Below, in pieces: positions 38,554-55,857 of a stretch of 64,000 nucleotides of DNA. The notes below the pieces were generated by a model that worked only from the letters and a program-made list of their open reading frames with translations, was not told where the DNA came from and made no database searches. Position numbers and translations under genes: made by a program. This DNA is from a virus: IMG/VR virus record IMGVR_UViG_3300036851_000225, positions 1 to 64,000 of that record. One strand, 5' to 3'. The first letter of the stretch is position 1. Each line of letters opens with the position of its first letter.

Positions 38554-38582
38554 CCCACCTCGCTACCCCTCCCACCTTGTTA

Positions 38583-38656
38583 TGGCTCCGGCTGGATTTG
38601 CACCAGCGCCCTCCGGCCTCTCAAGCCGATGCACTCACTAACCGTGCTGCGGAGCC
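38583..38656 (-). tRNA. tRNA-like gene, anticodon GAG (Leu)
   Basis: On the minus strand: acceptor GGCTCCG/CGGAGCC with discriminator A, D stem GCAC/GTGC with GGTTA loop, anticodon stem TCGGC/GCCGG with loop TTGAGAG (anticodon GAG), short variable loop (AGGGC) and T arm GCTGG-TGCAAAT-CCAGC. All four stems pair. Oddities: T8 is C, the T loop lacks TTC, CCA is not encoded, and leucine anticodons normally go with a long variable arm, absent here. It may be a tRNA with altered identity or a tRNA-like element. Confidence 0.6.
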
Positions 38657-38658
38657 AT

Positions 38659-47837: not shown

Positions 47838-48143
47838 ATGTGCTTTGAACATTTGAACGAAGCAAATAAGCGCAATGAACTGCTCTTGCTTGACGGCGGC
47901 ATGTGTCGTTTTCATCTGCGCAAAGACGGCCAATTGACGATCCACGAGATCATCAGTCAGCAGCCAGGGACAGGCCAAAAGATGCTCGGCGAACTGAAAA
48001 CGAAAGGCGCAACGTCACTCTTTGCGAAGTGTTCTGTTGCATATCAATCGAACGAATGGTACAGACGGCGTGGCTTTATCCTCGAAAAAGTTGAGACGTT
48101 GAAATCTGGCACGCAGATCAATCATTGGCGGCTATGGAACTGA
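47838..48143 (+). CDS. Small GNAT-type acyltransferase of the modification island
   Basis: 101 aa from ATG 47838, favoured by GGAG 6 nt upstream over an ATG four codons earlier. LTIHEIISQQPGTGQKMLGELKTKGATSLFAKC and SNEWYRRRGFILEKVETL give the GNAT acetyl-CoA loop (QxPGTGxxML) and the C-terminal NxWYxRxGF pattern. It overlaps the start of the DpdA-like gene by 10 nt. An acyl-transfer role in base or DNA modification is inferred from context only. Confidence 0.7.
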   Translation: MCFEHLNEANKRNELLLLDGGMCRFHLRKDGQLTIHEIISQQPGTGQKMLGELKTKGATSLFAKCSVAYQSNEWYRRRGFILEKVETLKSGTQINHWRLWN

Positions 48144-48814
48144 TCTATTGCGCTGGCAAAAATCGCCACTTTGAAGCCATAGCATTAGGAGCAGGCTTCA
48201 ATCTAGGCGTTCAATTACCGAATGTAATCTATCATCTGCCGCTCTACTTTGCCGATCAGGATTGGAAAAGGCCGAATAGAGAACGGTACATGGCGGCATT
48301 GGCTGAACATCGCCCGGTAGTGGCAACAGTACTGGACTGGGAGCAAGAGGAGCAACTTGACGAGGTGTTAGATTGGGCTGAAGAAACAACACAATACGTT
48401 GACCGTGTACTCATTGTGCCAAAAGTATCGGACGGCATTGATCGTTTGCCGCGCGTGATTGGCGGTAAACCGGTTATGCTGGCGTTTAGCGTGCCTACGC
48501 GGTTTGGAGGTACGCAATTACCAATCTGGGAATTTGCAGGCTGGCCTGTCCACTTACTCGGCGGCTCGCCGCATAGCCAGATGCATTATTGGTATCACTT
48601 ATCAGCAATAGCCGATGTAGTGAGCACAGACGGCAATATGGCACAACAGCAAGCACACAAGTGCCGCTTTTGGAATAAGAATAAGGGTAGCAAGGGGCAC
48701 TGGATACAACTTAGCGAGGTCGGAGCAGGCGACTTCGGCAAGGATAGCAATCAAGAGGCGTTCCGGCGTTCGTGCCAGAACATCATGGAGGCGTGGCAAT
48801 GCCTGATGAAATGA
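48134..48814 (+). CDS. DpdA/TGT-like protein (paralogue A)
   Basis: 226 aa from ATG 48134 (MELIYCAGKNRHFEAIALGAGF). ATVLDWEQEEQLDEVLDWAEETTQYVDRVLIVPK resembles the TGT-type (beta/alpha)8 barrel with acidic residue after strand 4. SVPTRFGGTQLPIWEFAGWPVHLLGGSPHSQMHYWYHL, then ADVVSTDGNM, is the base-exchange-like core with the second Asp. It is much smaller than tRNA-guanine transglycosylases (about 380 aa), as in phage DpdA-type proteins. A close paralogue forms the first half of the fusion at 53602. Predicted to swap guanine for a 7-deazaguanine in DNA. Confidence 0.6.
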   Translation: MELIYCAGKNRHFEAIALGAGFNLGVQLPNVIYHLPLYFADQDWKRPNRERYMAALAEHRPVVATVLDWEQEEQLDEVLDWAEETTQYVDRVLIVPKVSDGIDRLPRVIGGKPVMLAFSVPTRFGGTQLPIWEFAGWPVHLLGGSPHSQMHYWYHLSAIADVVSTDGNMAQQQAHKCRFWNKNKGSKGHWIQLSEVGAGDFGKDSNQEAFRRSCQNIMEAWQCLMK

Positions 48815-49005
48815 CAATCATCACAGGACAAAACGGCTTTTACGCCGTCGTCGGCAATCGGCGCACGCGGCTCTATATCAGTGTAGCGGCTGCACAGCGA
48901 GCGGCGGCAAGAGGCGAATTGTACACGGCGCACGAGTATGCCGTACTGACTGGACAGGACGCCGCGCAGCCTGAAGCCAAATCGCCGCTATCGCTGTTCG
49001 ATTGA
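48799..49005 (+). CDS. Small protein after DpdA-like A
   Basis: 68 aa from ATG 48799 (GGAGG upstream), overlapping the DpdA-like stop. GQNGFYAVVGNRRTRLYISVAAAQRAAARGELYTAHEYAVL. Not recognised; beta then helical. Confidence 0.5.
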   Translation: MPDEMTIITGQNGFYAVVGNRRTRLYISVAAAQRAAARGELYTAHEYAVLTGQDAAQPEAKSPLSLFD

Positions 49006-49017
49006 TCGTACTGATTG
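48995..49017 (+). promoter_or_regulatory. Dispersed regulatory site, copy 12
   Basis: Plus-orientation copy (core TTCGATTGATCGTA then CTGATTG) whose last bases overlap the -35 box TTGACA of the promoter at 49015-49043. Repression or activation from the site would directly control that promoter. Confidence 0.75.
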
Positions 49018-49043
49018 ACAAATAGGGGCAGCGGATGTATACT
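49015..49043 (+). promoter_or_regulatory. Promoter of the 49.2-50.3 kb operon
   Basis: TTGACA (49015-49020), a 17-bp spacer and TATACT (49038-49043). Confidence 0.8.
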
Positions 49044-49049
49044 TGTCTC

Positions 49050-49185
49050 GATACCTTCAGTCAGGAAAGCGATGCAGGCGTTGTGCTAGGCGCTGCATCG
49101 GCAGCACAATTGCATACGCATCGCTACGAAAGGCCATTTGATCGACTGTCTAGCACCAGTCAATCAGGTGGCTTTCTCGTTTCCA
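49050..49185 (+). ncRNA. Structured leader with switch-like hairpins and attenuator
   Basis: In the 150-nt leader, CGATGCAG (49070-49077) pairs with CTGCATCG (49093-49100). Competing pairs are TTGTGCT (49081-49087) with AGCACAA (49103-49109), and GCGATGC (49069-49075) with GCATCGC (49118-49124). The two sets cannot form together. It is followed by a hairpin at 49133-49172 (GCCA...GACTG/CAGTC...TGGC) and a T-rich run (TTTCTCGTTT). This is the arrangement of a riboswitch or attenuator. No ligand class is recognised; folding is by eye. Confidence 0.45.
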
Positions 49186-49197
49186 AGAGGAGAGAAG

Positions 49198-49470
49198 ATG
49201 AGTTTTACACCAGGGCCATGGCGTGCTGAGCGAACGTTAGGCGAGTGGGCTATTACTGGACCACCGAACTATGACGAGGATAGTATCGTTGTGTGGGCTG
49301 ATGCTGGCGTGAACGGTAAGGCCAATGCGCGATTGATCGCCGCCGCCCCTGACATGCACGCCGCCCTCACCCAGGTATCGACTATCCTTCACCGTCGCAA
49401 TCAGCCAGGCTGGGAAGAGGAGTTATTGGCAGTCGTTGACGCTGCTCTGAGCAAGGCGGAAGTGCAATGA
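49198..49470 (+). CDS. Small phage protein (TPGPW family)
   Basis: 90 aa from ATG 49198 (GAGGAGAGAAG upstream). FTPGPWRAERTLGEWAITGPPNYDEDSIVVWADAGVNGKANARLIAAAPDMHAALTQVSTIL resembles a common family of small phage proteins beginning TPGPW and with AAPDMxxAL. Function unknown; first gene after the structured leader. Confidence 0.65.
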   Translation: MSFTPGPWRAERTLGEWAITGPPNYDEDSIVVWADAGVNGKANARLIAAAPDMHAALTQVSTILHRRNQPGWEEELLAVVDAALSKAEVQ

Positions 49471-49823
49471 AGTGGGCAACAAACTACAAACGTACAGCCT
49501 ACTATCGATCCTTTGCAGCGGAGCGATTACGCAAAGAGCGACGACTGTACGCCACAATCGCGCTTCTGTCCTGTATCTATTCAGTGACGCTTGCTATCCT
49601 TGAACGGCGACTGCCGATCATACCTGACTACACGATAGTCGAGGTAATGGTCGGCGTGTTGATCGTCCTGGTGCCTGCTGCACTGATAGCACGGCGGCTT
49701 GACGATGATGCATTCCCGCTGACATGGCGACGGTACGAGCGGCTGATCGTCGGCGGCTTTGTAAGCAGTGGCATCCCTATCGCAGTGTGGCAAGCCGTTG
49801 AATACATATTGAGGCGAGCATGA
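49467..49823 (+). CDS. Membrane protein
   Basis: 118 aa, overlapping the previous gene by 4 nt. About three hydrophobic segments (LYATIALLSCIYSVTLAIL; YTIVEVMVGVLIVLVPAALIA; ERLIVGGFVSSGIPIAVW). Positively charged N-terminus. Unrecognised. Confidence 0.55.
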   Translation: MKWATNYKRTAYYRSFAAERLRKERRLYATIALLSCIYSVTLAILERRLPIIPDYTIVEVMVGVLIVLVPAALIARRLDDDAFPLTWRRYERLIVGGFVSSGIPIAVWQAVEYILRRA

Positions 49824-50110
49824 CACCTGACGAGTTTTACAGGCAATACACAGCGTTGCTCCACGCCTTACAAACTGGCGTGATGTATCGGCAACAGCTT
49901 GATCCAAGAGACGGCACACCTAAGCATCTACGGGTCGGTATTAACGCCAGCAAGGTCGATCATGCTGCGCTGGTGCGATTGCTCATTGATCGTGGTATCT
50001 TCACAGAAGCAGAGTATTTTGTTGCTCTGCTGGAAGAAATGAAAGTCGAAGTACAGCGTTATGAAGCGGAACTGTCACAGCACTACGGTGTAAAGGTAAC
50101 GCTAGGATAA
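49820..50110 (+). CDS. Small helical protein
   Basis: 96 aa: EFYRQYTALLHALQTGVMYRQQLDPRDGTPKHLRVGINASKVDHAALVRLLIDRGIFTEAEYFVALLEEMK. Overlaps the previous gene by 4 nt. Not recognised. Confidence 0.5.
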   Translation: MTPDEFYRQYTALLHALQTGVMYRQQLDPRDGTPKHLRVGINASKVDHAALVRLLIDRGIFTEAEYFVALLEEMKVEVQRYEAELSQHYGVKVTLG

Positions 50111-50114
50111 CACA

Positions 50115-50330
50115 ATGAAACTCTCCTCTCTCCTCTCAGCACACTATCGCATCTTCCGCTACATCGGCGCTCCGAAGTGGTACGCTGCCCGCCGTGCCAT
50201 AGTCGAGATGATCAAGGTGTATCCGGTGCAAGATTGGCGCTTTGTGGCGTGGCTGCTGTTCCTGGCATTGAACGTCAGCCTTGTGCTCAATATTGCACTC
50301 ATCGTGCTGATCATCATTGCGACGGCATAG
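50115..50330 (+). CDS. Small single-helix membrane protein
   Basis: 71 aa. C-terminal transmembrane helix (FVAWLLFLALNVSLVLNIALIVLIIIATA); N-terminal half soluble and basic. Function unknown. Confidence 0.5.
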   Translation: MKLSSLLSAHYRIFRYIGAPKWYAARRAIVEMIKVYPVQDWRFVAWLLFLALNVSLVLNIALIVLIIIATA

Positions 50331-50509
50331 GCTCTTGCTGGCTGTGCTGACTGCCGTGATAGAGAGCCTGTCATAGGCATTGAGTACAGCCAAGAGGAGC
50401 CTATACGACAAAAGGGGGTGATCAGCGGGCGACATCGCACCGTCCAGGGTTGATTGCACAATCGGGGCAGCGTCGCTGTGAGGAGCGCTGCCCCACTTAT
50501 CAGCACCAG
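50331..50509 (+). other. Structured intergenic region with possible promoter
   Basis: No gene. TGGCTGT (about 50346) and ACAGCCA pair around an inner GCCT/AGGC hairpin, and GGGGCAGCG/CGCTGCCCC makes a 9-bp hairpin at about 50464-50494. TTGAGT (50380-50385), a 16-bp spacer and TATACG (50402-50407) is a possible promoter for the MazG-like operon. The fold is weaker evidence than at 36.5 or 43.7 kb. Confidence 0.35.
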
Positions 50510-50533
50510 TGTTCGATCAATCGAACTGATTAG
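50510..50533 (+). promoter_or_regulatory. Dispersed regulatory site, copy 13
   Basis: Full-consensus plus-orientation copy (TTCGATCAATCGAACTGATT) 10 bp before the MazG-like start. Confidence 0.75.
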
Positions 50534-50543
50534 AGGAGAGGCA

Positions 50544-50921
50544 ATGACAACACTGCATCAGCAGATACACGCCGCTGTGGAGCAACGCATAACACGCGGC
50601 GCACTGACAAACGCGGATATTCTCAGGCTGAAACTCGTCAAACTCATCGAAGAGGCATGCGAGTTGAGTGAGTATATCCATACGCCGATCCGCTATGCCA
50701 CGGCGCAAACACAAGCGCTTGCTCGCGCTAGCTTCACGCATCGGTCTTGGCTACGAGATGATCGTCACTTCGATTTTGAGAAGATCAAGCAAGAGATTGC
50801 TGATTGCTACGTCGTCCTGGCGACAATGGAGCAAGAGATCATCGCACTGACTGGCGCTGAATGGGATATGCAACAGGCAGCATTGGAGAAGGCTACAGCG
50901 GACAGGGAGCGAACGACATGA
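50544..50921 (+). CDS. MazG-like NTP pyrophosphohydrolase
   Basis: 125 aa from ATG 50544 (AGAGGAGAGGC upstream). LKLVKLIEEACELSEYI is the first helix with EExxE; FEKIKQEIADCYVVLATME has ExxxD. These four acidic residues bind metal in the all-alpha MazG family. It would hydrolyse unwanted (d)NTPs, possibly to keep unmodified precursors out. Follows the dispersed site. Confidence 0.7.
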   Translation: MTTLHQQIHAAVEQRITRGALTNADILRLKLVKLIEEACELSEYIHTPIRYATAQTQALARASFTHRSWLRDDRHFDFEKIKQEIADCYVVLATMEQEIIALTGAEWDMQQAALEKATADRERTT

Positions 50922-51118
50922 GCATGTTTGTAAAAGGTGACAAGGTGAGAGTAAAGGCCGACAGCAGAAATGGCATTGTGCTGCGTGTCAGCCCCCGTCT
51001 GCAATCGAGTGTGCTGATCCAGCCGAACGGCGGCGGCGAGCCTGTAGCCTTTCGACCAGACGAGTTGACAAAGATTGTCACTAGCTTTTATCCGGTAGCG
51101 CCTGCGGTGAAGCCATGA
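50918..51118 (+). CDS. Small beta-barrel (KOW-like) protein
   Basis: 66 aa from ATG 50918, overlapping the MazG-like stop. MFVKGDKVRVKADSRNGIVLRVSPRLQSSVLIQPNGGGEPVAFRPDELTKIV resembles small SH3/KOW-type barrels. Binding role unknown. Confidence 0.5.
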   Translation: MSMFVKGDKVRVKADSRNGIVLRVSPRLQSSVLIQPNGGGEPVAFRPDELTKIVTSFYPVAPAVKP

Positions 51119-51330
51119 GAGGGACACCAAAAACCGATCACCCGACGCCTGGATATTGGGGAACGTACAAAAAAGCTGTGGTCTTGATTGATGATGATCA
51201 CTCATTTGACGCCTGGAACCGCTATGACATGCACCGTCATCGCCGGCATAGTTTAGATAAAGTGCGCGCCATACAATTCGGATGGCGCGCATTCCGAAAA
51301 GCATTAAAGAGAGTAAAACATAATGACTAA
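51115..51330 (+). CDS. Small basic protein
   Basis: 71 aa: RGTPKTDHPTPGYWGTYKKAVVLIDDDHSFDAWNRYDMHRHRRHSLDKVRAIQ, ending Arg/Lys-rich. Overlaps both neighbours. Unrecognised. Confidence 0.45.
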   Translation: MRGTPKTDHPTPGYWGTYKKAVVLIDDDHSFDAWNRYDMHRHRRHSLDKVRAIQFGWRAFRKALKRVKHND

Positions 51331-52729
51331 CTATGCTGCTTTCCTTGACAGCAAGCGCATCGTTGCACAGCCAAGCGGGTTTGACGTTGACGAGCTGGCG
51401 CCAATGCTCTTTGACTATCAATCAGCGGTCTGTAAATGGGCGTTGCGCAAGGGTAAGGGTGGGCTATTCTTAGACACAGGGCTTGGTAAGACGAGCATCT
51501 TTTTAGAGTGGGCACGGCACATCGTCAATCGTGAGGGCGGCAATGTGCTCATTCTTGCGCCTCTCGCTGTGTCCTACCAAATCGCCAGGGAGGGAAAGAA
51601 GTTCGGCATTGAAGTAAAAGTATGCTCGTCACAAGCCGATGTAGTACCGGGTATCAATGTGACGAACTACGAACGGCTGCACCTCTTCGAGCCGTCGAAG
51701 TTCATTGCCATTATCCTCGATGAAGGCAGCATTCTGAAGTCTCACGACGGCAAGACGCGCAACTACATTCTTGAGTGCTTTGCCCGCACACCATACAAGC
51801 TTGTGGCAACGGCTACCCCCAGCCCAAACGATCAAATGGAACTGGGCACCTATGCTGAGTTTTTAGGCATCATGTCCTACACCGAAATGCTCGCCACGTT
51901 CTTCTGTCACGACGGCGGCGACACAAGCAAGTGGCGATTGAAAGGCCATGCCGAAAAGGAATTTTACAAGTGGCTGGCGTCGTGGGCCATAGCCATGCGT
52001 AATCCTGCCGATCTTGGTTTCGACGGCTCACGGCATGTGCTACCGCCAAAGACGCGCCATGAGATCGTCGTCGCTGCCGATATTGAGACGGCACACGAGC
52101 AAGGTATGTTGTTTCCAATGGAAGCATTGACGATGATTGAGCGCCGCGCCGCTCGCAAGGCCAGCATCACAGATCGTGTCAAGGCCGCTGCCGATATTGT
52201 AAACAGTCTGCCGGCAGATGAGAAAGTTGTCTGCTGGTGCAATCTGAATGCCGAAGGCGATGCGCTCACAGCGGCAATCAACGGCGCTATCCAGGTAGCG
52301 GGCGCTGATCCGACCATTACGAAAGAAAAGCGCCTGCTGGACTTTGCCCACGGCAATCTCAACCGGCTGGTGACAAAGCCAGAGATTGCAGGATGGGGTC
52401 TATGCTTAGAAGCCTGTCGCTATGCGTTCTTTATTGGCTTGTCTGATAGTTTCGAGAGCCTATACCAGGCAGAGCGGCGTATCTGGCGCTTCGGGCAGGA
52501 GAGAGAATGCCACATCTGGATTATCACTTCAGAGACAGAAGGCGCTGTTGTCAGGAATATCGAGCGCAAGGAGGCGCAGCACCATGCGATGATGGACGGC
52601 CTCGTGGCACATATGCGTGATGAGATGCGGCGGGAACTGCAATCAACAACGCGCATGACAGACGAGTACAGCGCCAATCAGCCGATGATACTACCGGAAT
52701 GGATTAGAGAGGAGAGGATAGCGGCATGA
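51323..52729 (+). CDS. SNF2-type DNA helicase
   Basis: 468 aa. Motif Q/I: LFDYQSAVCKWALRKGKGGLFLDTGLGKTSIF (Walker A GLGKTS); II: IILDEGSILKSHDGKT (DEGS); III: ATATPSPND; C-terminal RecA lobe VVCWCNLNAEGDAL, then QAERRIWRFGQ (motif VI). This is the phage SNF2-type helicase family. It overlaps QueF by 4 nt, so it is co-translated with the modification genes. It may open or move along DNA for base exchange or for replication. Confidence 0.85.
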   Translation: MTNYAAFLDSKRIVAQPSGFDVDELAPMLFDYQSAVCKWALRKGKGGLFLDTGLGKTSIFLEWARHIVNREGGNVLILAPLAVSYQIAREGKKFGIEVKVCSSQADVVPGINVTNYERLHLFEPSKFIAIILDEGSILKSHDGKTRNYILECFARTPYKLVATATPSPNDQMELGTYAEFLGIMSYTEMLATFFCHDGGDTSKWRLKGHAEKEFYKWLASWAIAMRNPADLGFDGSRHVLPPKTRHEIVVAADIETAHEQGMLFPMEALTMIERRAARKASITDRVKAAADIVNSLPADEKVVCWCNLNAEGDALTAAINGAIQVAGADPTITKEKRLLDFAHGNLNRLVTKPEIAGWGLCLEACRYAFFIGLSDSFESLYQAERRIWRFGQERECHIWIITSETEGAVVRNIERKEAQHHAMMDGLVAHMRDEMRRELQSTTRMTDEYSANQPMILPEWIREERIAA

Positions 52730-53097
52730 AGTTCAATGCACTTGGACAGAACGCAACGCCATCGCGCAATCTAGAGACATTCGCAACGCCGGAATGCATC
52801 ACGCTTATCACTTTGGACTATGACGAAATGACGAGTGTATGCCCGGTGACAGGCCAGCCCGATCTGTCAATGGTCAAGATCGAATATGCGCCTGGCGATA
52901 CCTGTATCGAAAGTAAATCGTTAAAACTTTACTTTCAGACATTCCGCAATGAAGGCGTTTTCTGCGAGGCGCTGTCAGCACAGATAGCACAGGACATTAT
53001 GAGCGCTTGTAATCCTATCTGGTGCGAGGTGACAGTGACGCAAAAGCGACGCGGTGGTATCCAAATTGCCGCAACAGCAAGAGGAGAGAGAATATGA
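52726..53097 (+). CDS. queF: QueF or QueF-like: 7-cyano-7-deazaguanine converting enzyme
   Basis: 123 aa. LITLDYDEMTSVCPVTGQPDLSMVKIEYAPGDTCIESKSLKLYFQTFRNEGVFCEALSAQIAQDIM...IWCEVTVTQKRRGGIQI aligns block by block with QueF: active Cys in VCPVTGQPD with Asp, ESKSLKLY, FRN, RGGI. QueF reduces preQ0 to preQ1. Two oddities: it is short (QueF about 165 aa; short QueF-like amidinotransferases about 110 aa), and the usual His before the substrate Glu (FHE) is Cys (FCE). So it may make preQ1, archaeosine-type base, or another derivative. Overlaps helicase and transporter by 4 nt each. Confidence 0.85.
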   Translation: MKFNALGQNATPSRNLETFATPECITLITLDYDEMTSVCPVTGQPDLSMVKIEYAPGDTCIESKSLKLYFQTFRNEGVFCEALSAQIAQDIMSACNPIWCEVTVTQKRRGGIQIAATARGERI

Positions 53098-53630
53098 AGT
53101 ACGCCTATATCCTGGCATACATCGCCGTCGTGGTCGCGGCAAACTTCACCGCTATGACATTTATCCCGCTGCCACTCTTTGGACTGGTGGCAGTCGGCAC
53201 CCTGTTTTTTGGCGCAACGTTCACCTTACGAGATCGTGTACATCGCTATGGACGGCGTACTACCTACACGATGATCGCCGCCGCCGCCGTTATCGGCGTG
53301 ATCCAATCACTCTTCATCGCTGTGCCCTGGCGCATTATCGCTGCCAGCTTTACGGCGATCCTGATCAACGAGGCAGCGGATACCGAGATTTATGAGGCGT
53401 TGAAACAGCGCCACCCGCTTGTGCGCATCTTCGGTAGCAACGCAGTATCCATTCCACTCGATACGATCCTCTTTACACTACTGGCTTTTGCTGGTGAGCC
53501 TGCTTTCCCTATGTCTGTCCTGATCGCTATTATCTATGGCGACATTCTCGCGAAGTTCGCTGTGGCTTCACTCATTGCGCCATTCATTGCCGGGAACACC
53601 TATGCGCGTCATCTATTGCGATACGAATAA
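53094..53630 (+). CDS. VUT/YhhQ-family queuosine precursor transporter
   Basis: 178 aa from ATG 53094 (GAGGAGAGAG upstream). Six hydrophobic segments; KYAYILAYIAVVVAANFTAM, FTLRDRVHRYGRRTT, ILINEAADTEIYEAL, FGSNAVSIPLDTILFTLLAF and YGDILAKFAVA are family blocks (YhhQ: xNExADTExY, SNAVSxPxDSxLF). It imports preQ0/preQ1. It sits between QueF and the DpdA-methyltransferase gene, which supports salvage of the precursor instead of full synthesis (no QueC/D/E or FolE here). Confidence 0.85.
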   Translation: MKYAYILAYIAVVVAANFTAMTFIPLPLFGLVAVGTLFFGATFTLRDRVHRYGRRTTYTMIAAAAVIGVIQSLFIAVPWRIIAASFTAILINEAADTEIYEALKQRHPLVRIFGSNAVSIPLDTILFTLLAFAGEPAFPMSVLIAIIYGDILAKFAVASLIAPFIAGNTYARHLLRYE

Positions 53631-55335
53631 CAAGCGCTGTGCTGAGATCGCCGTCAAGGCCGGCTTGCTTTACGGCGCGCAACTGCCGGCTAGTCAGGTA
53701 TTCTTTGATCCGTTCTTTACCGATCAAAACTGGAAAAAACCGCAATTTGATCAGTACGTTGCCGCCGTCCAGCAATACAAACCGCACTACGCAACAGTCA
53801 TAGATTGGGAGCGCAAGGGGCAAGAGACAGAAGTGATGCAGTGGGCCGAAGCAATCGCGCCTTACACGCAGCATATCATCATTATCCCAAAAACGCCAGG
53901 CGTTATTGATCGGATACCACACACGATCAATGGTACATCTGTCGTTCTTGGCTACAGTGTTCCTACCACCTACGGCGGTACAGCAATCCCGCCGACTGAT
54001 TTTGCAGGCTGGCAGGTTCACCTGCTTGGCGGCTCGCCAAAAGCGCAACAGCGCGCCTATCGCAAGATGCAAGCGGCTAAAGCCGAAGTGGTAAGCGTTG
54101 ACGGGAATATCATCTCAAAAATGGCGATCAAGAAGTGTCACTATTGGGCTAGCGGGCAGTGGAATGCAATGGACGGGCAAGATCCCAGGGCGTTTGCTGA
54201 TGAGCAATACGACAAGCGCTATATGATATTCGAGGTTTCCTGCCAGTCCATTATGCGAGAATGGCACAAGCTCACGAGTGACAAGCCGGATCGATCAATT
54301 TTTATCATGCCAGGAGGGGAGCATATGACAAACGTTATCAATCAGGCGCAAGGTGAGAATTGGATTACATATCACGGCGATTGCGTCGAGACGATGAAAG
54401 GCATACCGGATAACAGTATTGATTATTCTGTGTTCAGTCCTCCATTTGCATCGTTATATACGTATTCCGCATCAGAGCGGGATATGGGCAATTGCCGTGA
54501 TCACAATGACTTCGCAGTGCATTACCGCTATCTGGTCACAGAGCAATATCGCACACTGAAGCCTGGACGCTTGCTCTCATTCCACTGCATGCAGCTACCA
54601 GCCACAAAGCAGTACCACGGCTACATCGGCCTGATTGACTTTCGCGGCGAGTTGATCCGTATGTACCAGGACGCCGGATTTATCTATCACTCTGAAGTGG
54701 TAATCTGGAAGGACCCCGTAACAGCGATGCAGCGTACCAAAGCGCTCGGCTTGCTCTATAAGCAACTGAAAAAAGACAGCGCCATGAGCCGCCAGGGTGT
54801 ACCGGATTATCTTGTTACGATGCGAAAGCCAGGCATCAATGAAGAGCCGATCACGAAAGAGCCGCTTGATTATCCCGTCGATTTGTGGCAAGAGGTAGCT
54901 AGTCCTATCTGGAACTATGGCGAAAACGATCCGCCATTTCGCCAGCTTGTTGATTGGCTGATGCAGTTCTTCGGGCGTTCTGATACTCTGCCCGTATGGC
55001 AGCGCTACACAGATGCAGTATGGATGGATATTAACCCCTCTGACACACTTCAGTATCGCAGCGCCAGAGAGCATCAGGATGAGCGCCACATCTGCCCACT
55101 GCAACTGGAGGTAATACGGCGTGCTATCCGGCTCTGGACTAACCCAGGTGATACTGTCCTTGATCCTTTTGGGGGGATTGGAAGTACGCCATACTGCGCG
55201 ATTGAACTAGGCCGGCGCGGCGTAGGCATCGAACTGAAGCGCTCCTATTTTGAGCAGATGTGTCGCAACTTAGCTGCTGCCGAAAAAATGGCACACCGGT
55301 CATCCTTCTTTGATTTGATCGAAGAAGCTGCATAA
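53602..55335 (+). CDS. DpdA-like/TGT-like and DNA methyltransferase fusion
   Basis: 577 aa from ATG 53602, overlapping the transporter by 29 nt. Residues 1-235 are paralogous to the protein at 48134: CDTNNKRCAEIAVKAGLLYG, ATVIDWERKGQETEVMQWAE, SVPTTYGGTAIPPTDFAGWQVHLLGGSPKAQQ, VVSVDGN. Residues 242-577 are a beta-class amino-methyltransferase: SPPF (motif IV) in YSVFSPPFASLYTYSA and LDPFGGIGSTPYCAIELGRRGVGIEL (motif I, C-terminal), so N6-adenine or N4-cytosine type. An AGGAGG site directly before Met 242 gives an internal start. A base-exchange domain covalently joined to a DNA methyltransferase is not known to me. Confidence 0.75.
   Translation: MRVIYCDTNNKRCAEIAVKAGLLYGAQLPASQVFFDPFFTDQNWKKPQFDQYVAAVQQYKPHYATVIDWERKGQETEVMQWAEAIAPYTQHIIIIPKTPGVIDRIPHTINGTSVVLGYSVPTTYGGTAIPPTDFAGWQVHLLGGSPKAQQRAYRKMQAAKAEVVSVDGNIISKMAIKKCHYWASGQWNAMDGQDPRAFADEQYDKRYMIFEVSCQSIMREWHKLTSDKPDRSIFIMPGGEHMTNVINQAQGENWITYHGDCVETMKGIPDNSIDYSVFSPPFASLYTYSASERDMGNCRDHNDFAVHYRYLVTEQYRTLKPGRLLSFHCMQLPATKQYHGYIGLIDFRGELIRMYQDAGFIYHSEVVIWKDPVTAMQRTKALGLLYKQLKKDSAMSRQGVPDYLVTMRKPGINEEPITKEPLDYPVDLWQEVASPIWNYGENDPPFRQLVDWLMQFFGRSDTLPVWQRYTDAVWMDINPSDTLQYRSAREHQDERHICPLQLEVIRRAIRLWTNPGDTVLDPFGGIGSTPYCAIELGRRGVGIELKRSYFEQMCRNLAAAEKMAHRSSFFDLIEEAA
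54325..55335 (+). CDS. DNA methyltransferase made by internal initiation
   Basis: In-frame ATG 54325 (MTNVINQAQGENWITYHGDC) follows AGGAGGGGAGCAT, the best ribosome site in the gene, 7 nt away. It would give a 336-aa complete methyltransferase (SPPF ... DPFGGIGST) without the DpdA-like part. The two genes may thus be expressed both as a fusion and as a separate enzyme, or the fusion arose by loss of a stop. Confidence 0.6.
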   Translation: MTNVINQAQGENWITYHGDCVETMKGIPDNSIDYSVFSPPFASLYTYSASERDMGNCRDHNDFAVHYRYLVTEQYRTLKPGRLLSFHCMQLPATKQYHGYIGLIDFRGELIRMYQDAGFIYHSEVVIWKDPVTAMQRTKALGLLYKQLKKDSAMSRQGVPDYLVTMRKPGINEEPITKEPLDYPVDLWQEVASPIWNYGENDPPFRQLVDWLMQFFGRSDTLPVWQRYTDAVWMDINPSDTLQYRSAREHQDERHICPLQLEVIRRAIRLWTNPGDTVLDPFGGIGSTPYCAIELGRRGVGIELKRSYFEQMCRNLAAAEKMAHRSSFFDLIEEAA

Positions 55336-55346
55336 TTTTTGCGCCA

Positions 55347-55369
55347 CTGTTCGATTGATTGCACTGATA
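55347..55369 (+). promoter_or_regulatory. Dispersed regulatory site, copy 14
   Basis: Plus-orientation copy (TTCGATTGATTGCACTGAT) in the gap between the fusion gene and the Mom-like gene, just before its start. Confidence 0.65.
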
Positions 55370-55374
55370 CGATT

Positions 55375-55857
55375 ATGATAGCACTAACGCCACAAACACT
55401 CTTTACCACTGAGGAGATTGGCGGATACTGGCTGCCGATCAAGGATGGCGATCCGCGTGGTAAGTGGCTTTTTAATCGGCACTATTCGCATTATGAGTAC
55501 AAGGACGGTCGCAAGCCAAAGCTTTTTGTAGGACCAGGCGAAAAACTTGTGCTGATAACATCACTCTGTGATGCTCTATTTGTATGGCGCAAATTTGTCA
55601 GTGGCGACGATCAGCAAGGCGTCAACTGCGCAGTGTTCAGGAATGAAGGCGCAATACGATCAAGCGTGCTTATTCTAGAAGCTGAACAAATCGCATGGAA
55701 CCGATGGCCTCATGAACGACTGTATACCTACGTCAATCCACGAGTTATCAAAAGCGCCAATCCTGGCTATTGTTTCAAAATGGCTGGCTGGCGTATATGC
55801 GGCGTAACAAAGGTGAACAGATTGTTAATCTTGGAGAAACTACATGAGCAAGTTTAA
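55375..55857 (+). CDS. Mom/GNAT-like modification protein (tentative)
   Basis: 160 aa from ATG 55375; a clear ribosome site is lacking. GKWLFNRHYSHYEYKDGRKPKLFVGPGEKLVLITSLCDALFVWRKF..., then SSVLILEAEQIAWNRWPHERLYTYVNPRVIKSANPGYCFKMAGWRICG. This order (HYS, then NPxxIxSxNPGYxFxxAGWxxxG) resembles the GNAT-type fold proposed for phage Mu Mom and similar phage proteins. Located at the end of the island, it may add a further group to DNA. Fold and role are inference. Confidence 0.45.
   Translation: MIALTPQTLFTTEEIGGYWLPIKDGDPRGKWLFNRHYSHYEYKDGRKPKLFVGPGEKLVLITSLCDALFVWRKFVSGDDQQGVNCAVFRNEGAIRSSVLILEAEQIAWNRWPHERLYTYVNPRVIKSANPGYCFKMAGWRICGVTKVNRLLILEKLHEQV

Follow-up and report, generated by a model that had tools for sequence, protein, structure and literature searches.

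A predicted salvage-type 7-deazaguanine DNA modification island in a temperate phage, with DUF6610 proteins as candidate transglycosylases and a GNAT-type acyltransferase as their partner

Could a handful of phage genes suffice to place a salvaged 7-deazaguanine in DNA, and which protein would perform the exchange? The question is raised by an island in what we call the window, the 64,000 nucleotides that were analysed (positions 1–64,000 of the 70,017-bp IMG/VR record IMGVR_UViG_3300036851_000225). The record carries genes for a terminase, a portal, a head protease, and a head protein (PHROGs), together with an integrase and a repressor-like HTH protein; the phage is tailed and, as the original prediction had proposed from the sequence, temperate. 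Every gene named in that prediction exists as an open frame close to its predicted position. They lie on the plus strand in two blocks: a small acyltransferase gene followed by one for a TGT/DpdA-like protein (GNAT1–TGTa, 47838–48814), and then, from 51323 to 55857, genes for a SNF2-type helicase, QueF, a YhhQ/VUT-type transporter, a second TGT/DpdA-like protein (TGTb) in frame with a methyltransferase, and a Mom-like protein. We take the island to encode a salvage-type system for 7-deazaguanine modification of DNA, with a probability of about three in four. A Chloroflexota-like host is suggested by a Chloroflexota MAG in which a single contig bears both a related head protein and a gene of DUF6610, the family to which TGTa and TGTb belong (see below). 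A 7.3-Mb Chloroflexota genome (L097, L099; L numbers designate loci) contains two more DUF6610 genes, nearer to the Pfam profile than those of the window, one located between head/packaging-type genes and the other with an in-frame TAG. The phage also carries a tRNA-Leu (GAG) inside the window (38582–38657, minus strand).

Two of the predicted genes bear on the supply of the base. QueF (QueF-II; 52726–53097; PF14489, 2e-22) scores 104.4 bits against the NCBIfam equivalog TIGR03139, "preQ(1) synthase" (cut-off 86.9 bits), and the YhhQ/VUT-type queuosine precursor transporter (53094–53630; PF02592, 4e-15) scores 60.6 bits against TIGR00697, "queuosine precursor transporter" (cut-off 50.95 bits); with both above their equivalog cut-offs, a predicted source of preQ0/preQ1 is at hand. 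In an alignment, QueF retains its nucleophilic Cys and its Asp, both within TSVCPVTGQPD, and the motif ESKSLKLY is intact. The family assignment is strong, and a preQ0 → preQ1 reductase activity is predicted from it. The window QueF reads FCE where FHE is expected, that is, the His of the substrate motif is replaced by Cys. This replacement had been singled out before as possibly altering the product; it is present, but it is no private oddity, as FCE recurs in the QueF of L078 and L085 and SCE in that of L079 and of the Mycobacterium phage Rinkes, and the His is retained in the aligned QueF of Dp-1, Pan1, R26L, R5C, and the haloviruses. Here, the Cys-for-His subgroup (window, L078, L085, L079, and Rinkes) is seen only in DUF6610-carrying phages. 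As predicted, tblastn detected no FolE, QueD, QueE, or QueC, either in the window or in the remainder of the 70,017-bp record, and the window contains no preQ1 riboswitch. A salvage supply, as originally envisaged, fits this combination of a transporter and QueF with no preQ0 pathway found. QueF occurs in only 3 of the 46 other DUF6610 records, so most relatives must obtain the base otherwise.

Both TGT/DpdA-like proteins belong to DUF6610 (PF20314). TGTa (48134–48814; 8e-38) is a predicted DNA-guanine transglycosylase, and TGTb (53602–54270; 2e-38) forms the N-terminal part of the 53602–55335 frame, for which an earlier ATG is possible at 53536. The two are 42% identical, and TGTb keeps every invariant residue of the family, including D41, D68, PK97, H140, LGG144, and S164-x-D166 (n = 42 sequences aligned). 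The window is the sole record with two DUF6610 genes; the 46 others have one each. No close relatives of TGTb were found in viral contigs. A recent duplication giving TGTa and TGTb was considered but is not supported: the two share ~40% identity and do not group as sisters in a tree whose own support is weak.

An AF2 model of TGTa (pLDDT 96.6, pTM 0.92) finds TGT (7a3x, E = 6.5e-4) second by E-value and at the top by query TM-score (0.60) among the PDB matches listed, with other TIM barrels nearly equal and with aldolase and pyruvate kinase barrels matching too. Against viral models, its own family comes first (HCTV-1 gp64 and, separately, a ParB fusion), and the annotated neighbors comprise queuine transferases from Arthrobacter phage Mufasa8 (3e-6) and from a Sulfolobales virus (8e-5) and the TGT of Achromobacter phage Motura (6e-4). 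The nearest annotated folds of the 48134 protein are thus TGT and viral queuine transferases, in keeping with the TGT-like character originally ascribed to it; a fold unlike TGT, which was to refute the original prediction, did not emerge for this protein. In the model, the strand positions and order of D41 and S164-x-D166 appear to match those of TGT Asp102 and Asp280. No sequence-profile similarity was detected by hhalign between DUF6610 and DpdA of the phage 9g/R5C type, and no sequence-profile link was detected between DUF6610 and PDB chains, TGTs included; because the DpdA profile likewise fails to reach the PDB TGTs, such profile testing lacks power.

A link from this family to a modified base in DNA comes from haloviruses. 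A homologue of TGTa is encoded by HVTV-1 gene 69 (tblastn, 3e-14; hhalign, 2e-28), and HVTV-1 gp69 and HCTV-1 gp64 are DUF6610 proteins within preQ0/QueF clusters: HVTV-1 gene 69 adjoins FolE, QueE, QueD, QueC, and QueF, and HCTV-1 has the same gene set plus YhhQ. HVTV-1 DNA contains dPreQ1 at about 30% of G; no viral DpdA was found in HVTV-1, and a host enzyme was proposed (Hutinet et al., 2019; PMC6884629). By position and elimination, gp69 is implicated as the candidate enzyme behind dPreQ1, although the HVTV-1 host also has a DpdA homologue. In 2023, Cui et al. reportedly described, in NAR, a DpdA subfamily, DpdA4, that is confined to archaeal viruses; HVTV-1 gp69, and hence DUF6610, presumably corresponds to it. 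No mention of DUF6610 or DpdA4 was found in the literature searched.

The neighbors and the fusions of DUF6610, collected over 49 loci of relatives (45 viral and 4 genome loci), point independently to queuosine precursors and to DNA. YhhQ lies directly beside DUF6610 in L044, L053, and L059, QueT in L038, and QueF–QueC in L078 and L079, and 6 of 10 such queuosine-type genes lie at most 300 nt from DUF6610 (p ~7e-5 against random placement, a post hoc value). A DUF6610-QueF fusion in L079 was ruled out, as the reading frames overlap but differ. On the DNA side, TGTb in the window is in frame with an N4/N6 DNA methyltransferase, a C5 methyltransferase is fused to DUF6610 in L081, and ParB is fused to it in L083 and, by sequence, also in L075, L077, L079, and Rinkes; given these fusions, DNA rather than tRNA is the likely substrate. 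Together with gp69 and the dPreQ1 of HVTV-1, the YhhQ, QueT, and QueF–QueC pairings and the DNA methyltransferase and ParB fusions make DNA-guanine exchange by DUF6610 well supported. Two of these loci have further features. In L081 (Nostoc sp. CHAB 5844; L081:4916–6676), a single frame encodes GNAT, DUF6610, and a C5 DNA methyltransferase, and in Rinkes, gene 1 (L096:1–1302), a ParB-DUF6610 fusion annotated as a ParB-like nuclease, adjoins a QueF-like gene and a gene annotated as DpdA-like, placing two candidate transglycosylases in one cluster. The GNAT and ParB architectures of DUF6610 do not co-occur in these loci.

The strongest unusual link, and the main novelty, is the association of GNAT1 with DUF6610. 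GNAT1 (47838–48143) overlaps TGTa by 10 nt and starts at a Met (47838) also used by its homologues; its profile identifies it as a small GNAT-type acyltransferase, and it is a conserved partner of DUF6610. The profile (A3) matches GNAT chains in the PDB (7e-7), Pfam Acetyltransf_1 is matched by 14 of 30 family members, and the GNAT CoA motif R/Q-x-x-G-x-G is present, reading QQPGTG in the window. The original prediction had counted two acyltransferase-like proteins, which stands for GNAT1 as a GNAT-type protein and for the 55375–55857 protein as a predicted GNAT fold, but it had missed the link to DUF6610. In 35 of the 49 loci, GNAT1 adjoins DUF6610 or is fused to it; the fusions, found in 8 loci, occur at either end: N-terminal to DUF6610 in L060, L076, L081, and L082 and C-terminal in L061, L062, L066, and L067. 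Its sole relative in the phage collection is gp88 of Dinoroseobacter phage R5C, encoded two genes past a DpdA of the classical type, within a FolE-QueD-QueC-QueF cluster; R26L and Pan1, which are closely related to R5C, share this cluster, but no GNAT1 homologue was found in theirs. Such a pattern is that of an optional tailoring gene, and GNAT1 is probably a tailoring enzyme that some systems do without. R5C has a further short gene, gp87 (L095:11697–12008; 103 aa), between those of DpdA and gp88, and the start of gp87 is GNAT1-like; it is perhaps a degenerate or partner GNAT. In the literature searched, DpdA, preQ1, and an acetyltransferase appear together only in a general Tevenvirinae paper.

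The remaining members of the proposed island are less closely tied to it. Neither the SNF2–methyltransferase pair nor the Mom-like protein shows a specific link to the system. The helicase (51323–52729; PF00176, 4e-7; phrog_62, 8e-64) and the N4/N6-type DNA methyltransferase (54325–55335; PF01555, 2.6e-20), the latter with ~55% identity to methyltransferases of phages (EBPR podovirus 1, for example), are both present as predicted. The two are adjacent in L032 and form a single frame in L072; this is a common, generic phage pair with no specific tie to the system. QueF, YhhQ/VUT, and TGTb are, as had been claimed, overlapping genes, with YhhQ/VUT overlapping both of the others, and we infer that they were placed as a cassette between SNF2 and the methyltransferase, which put TGTb in the methyltransferase frame. 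The predicted fusion holds in that one open frame extends to 55335, but the methyltransferase has its own ATG at 54325, preceded by AGGAGG (Shine-Dalgarno), which allows separate translation, and TGTb-methyltransferase may thus be a fusion or two products. The Mom-like protein (phrog_24928; 55375–55857) has no Pfam match; its AF2 model (pLDDT 89.3) has GNATs or GNAT-like domains as best PDB folds, and its tblastn matches are six records from other phages, with no Mu-type phage among them. We rejected it as a component of the system: L060 carries both it and DUF6610, but no DUF6610 was found in the retrieved stretches of its 24 viral loci, and the two are only loosely linked. The same family occurs in another phage in which a YhhQ-like gene overlaps a DpdA-like gene (GYDSADG; L018:9904–11092).

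In the mechanism that we propose, YhhQ would import preQ0, or the host would provide it, and QueF-II would reduce it to preQ1, which we predict, with some reserve, to be the inserted base. One or both of the DUF6610 transglycosylases would swap guanine in phage DNA for that base, as the fold, HVTV-1, the fusions, and the neighborhoods suggest. TGTb-methyltransferase, fused or translationally coupled, may couple the exchange to methylation or target sites. GNAT1 would probably tailor the base; N-acylation is the simplest chemistry to suppose, as preQ1 has a free primary amine. We suggest, tentatively and at less than even odds, that preQ1 is the substrate of GNAT1 and that acylation of its aminomethyl group, free or in DNA, may yield an undescribed N-acyl-preQ1 in DUF6610 phages, with the GNAT-transglycosylase fusions acting as one-protein writers and TGTb-methyltransferase joining exchange and methylation. 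The modified base would shield the phage genome from restriction.

Other readings differ in the base, the target, or the enzyme. The final base could be archaeosine (G+) or another QueF-like product, with the FCE QueF acting as an amidinotransferase on DNA-bound preQ0 and no reduction by NADPH. The loss of the FHE His, which the window QueF shares with those of other DUF6610 phages, would agree with this, and QueF and QueF-L are hard to separate by sequence (PMC6884629), but the score above the preQ(1) synthase cut-off, the intact reductase motif ESKSLKLY, the closer match to B. subtilis QueF (4f8b, 8e-16) than to archaeal QueF-L (7e-6), and the 46.5% identity to the QueF of Dp-1, whose DNA has dPreQ1, make it improbable. 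That the genes are a metabolic helper set raising queuosine in host tRNA, with no DNA modification, strikes us as very improbable: DUF6610 is fused to ParB and to two kinds of DNA methyltransferase and lies among the preQ0 genes of HVTV-1, a virus with dPreQ1-rich DNA, even though QueF and YhhQ are tRNA-queuosine genes in bacteria and phages with preQ0 genes but without DpdA exist (PMC6884629).

DUF6610 could also be another type of TIM-barrel enzyme, tailoring a 7-deazaguanine that a host or unrecognized DpdA has inserted. The family has no sequence link to TGT/DpdA, the aldolase and pyruvate kinase barrels also match the TGTa model, and Rinkes has an annotated DpdA-like gene besides its ParB-DUF6610. 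The annotated viral fold neighbors are, however, queuine transferases and a TGT, the order of D41 and S164-x-D166 seems to fit that of TGT Asp102 and Asp280, and no other viral DpdA was detected in HVTV-1 or the window, so we consider this quite improbable. GNATs act mostly on proteins or small amines, and GNAT1 might be unrelated to the base and acylate a protein, for example, part of a host restriction system or the transglycosylase itself; this we find doubtful, since GNAT1 is fused N-terminally to DUF6610 in some branches and C-terminally in others, and is inserted past the R5C DpdA while missing from R26L and Pan1.

Read as a salvage-type system, the island connects an uncharacterized Pfam family with guanine exchange in the DNA of bacterial phages, puts forward a candidate for the HVTV-1 dPreQ1 enzyme left unnamed in the 2019 study, and represents a minimal version whose only requirements are a transporter, QueF, and a transglycosylase. 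The acyltransferase, as a recurrent partner with fusions at both ends, leads to a concrete prediction of a new DNA base, and the inserted base may carry a further decoration of a kind that has not been seen before.

Phages that carry a queuosine transporter next to a transglycosylase are already known, from the records of Dp-1 (QueT), HCTV-1 (YhhQ; PMC8651126), and slur01, and the pairing recurs in L018. Like the window, HVTV-1 and HCTV-1 (Druskaviridae) combine DUF6610 (gp69, gp64) and QueF in one cluster, HCTV-1 with YhhQ in addition and HVTV-1 with dPreQ1 in its DNA; they differ in being archaeal, in their full FolE-QueD-QueE-QueC set and retained QueF His, and in having no GNAT1 in the cluster and no methyltransferase fusion. 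The dPreQ1 system of Streptococcus phage Dp-1 shares QueF and a transporter gene (QueT) that overlaps the transglycosylase gene, but it uses a classical DpdA, a full preQ0 pathway, no GNAT, and QueT in place of YhhQ. R5C likewise groups QueF and a transglycosylase with a homologue of GNAT1 in an operon-like run, again with a classical DpdA and a full preQ0 pathway, with no transporter seen, and with gp88 accompanied by the short gp87. The gene set of the bacterial Dpd island was not found by PADLOC, apart from a weak match of SNF2 to DpdE. Phage Mu Mom resembles the 55375–55857 protein in its GNAT-like fold and phage DNA modification context, but it acts on adenine, and the latter has no Mu-type tblastn match. 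In contrast to DpdA4, which is reportedly found in archaeal viruses only, DUF6610 occurs here in a bacterial phage and as two copies, with a methyltransferase joined to one and a GNAT partnering the other. What is new in this variant is DUF6610 in bacterial phages, present in two copies, supplied by salvage only, joined to a methyltransferase, and accompanied by a GNAT partner.
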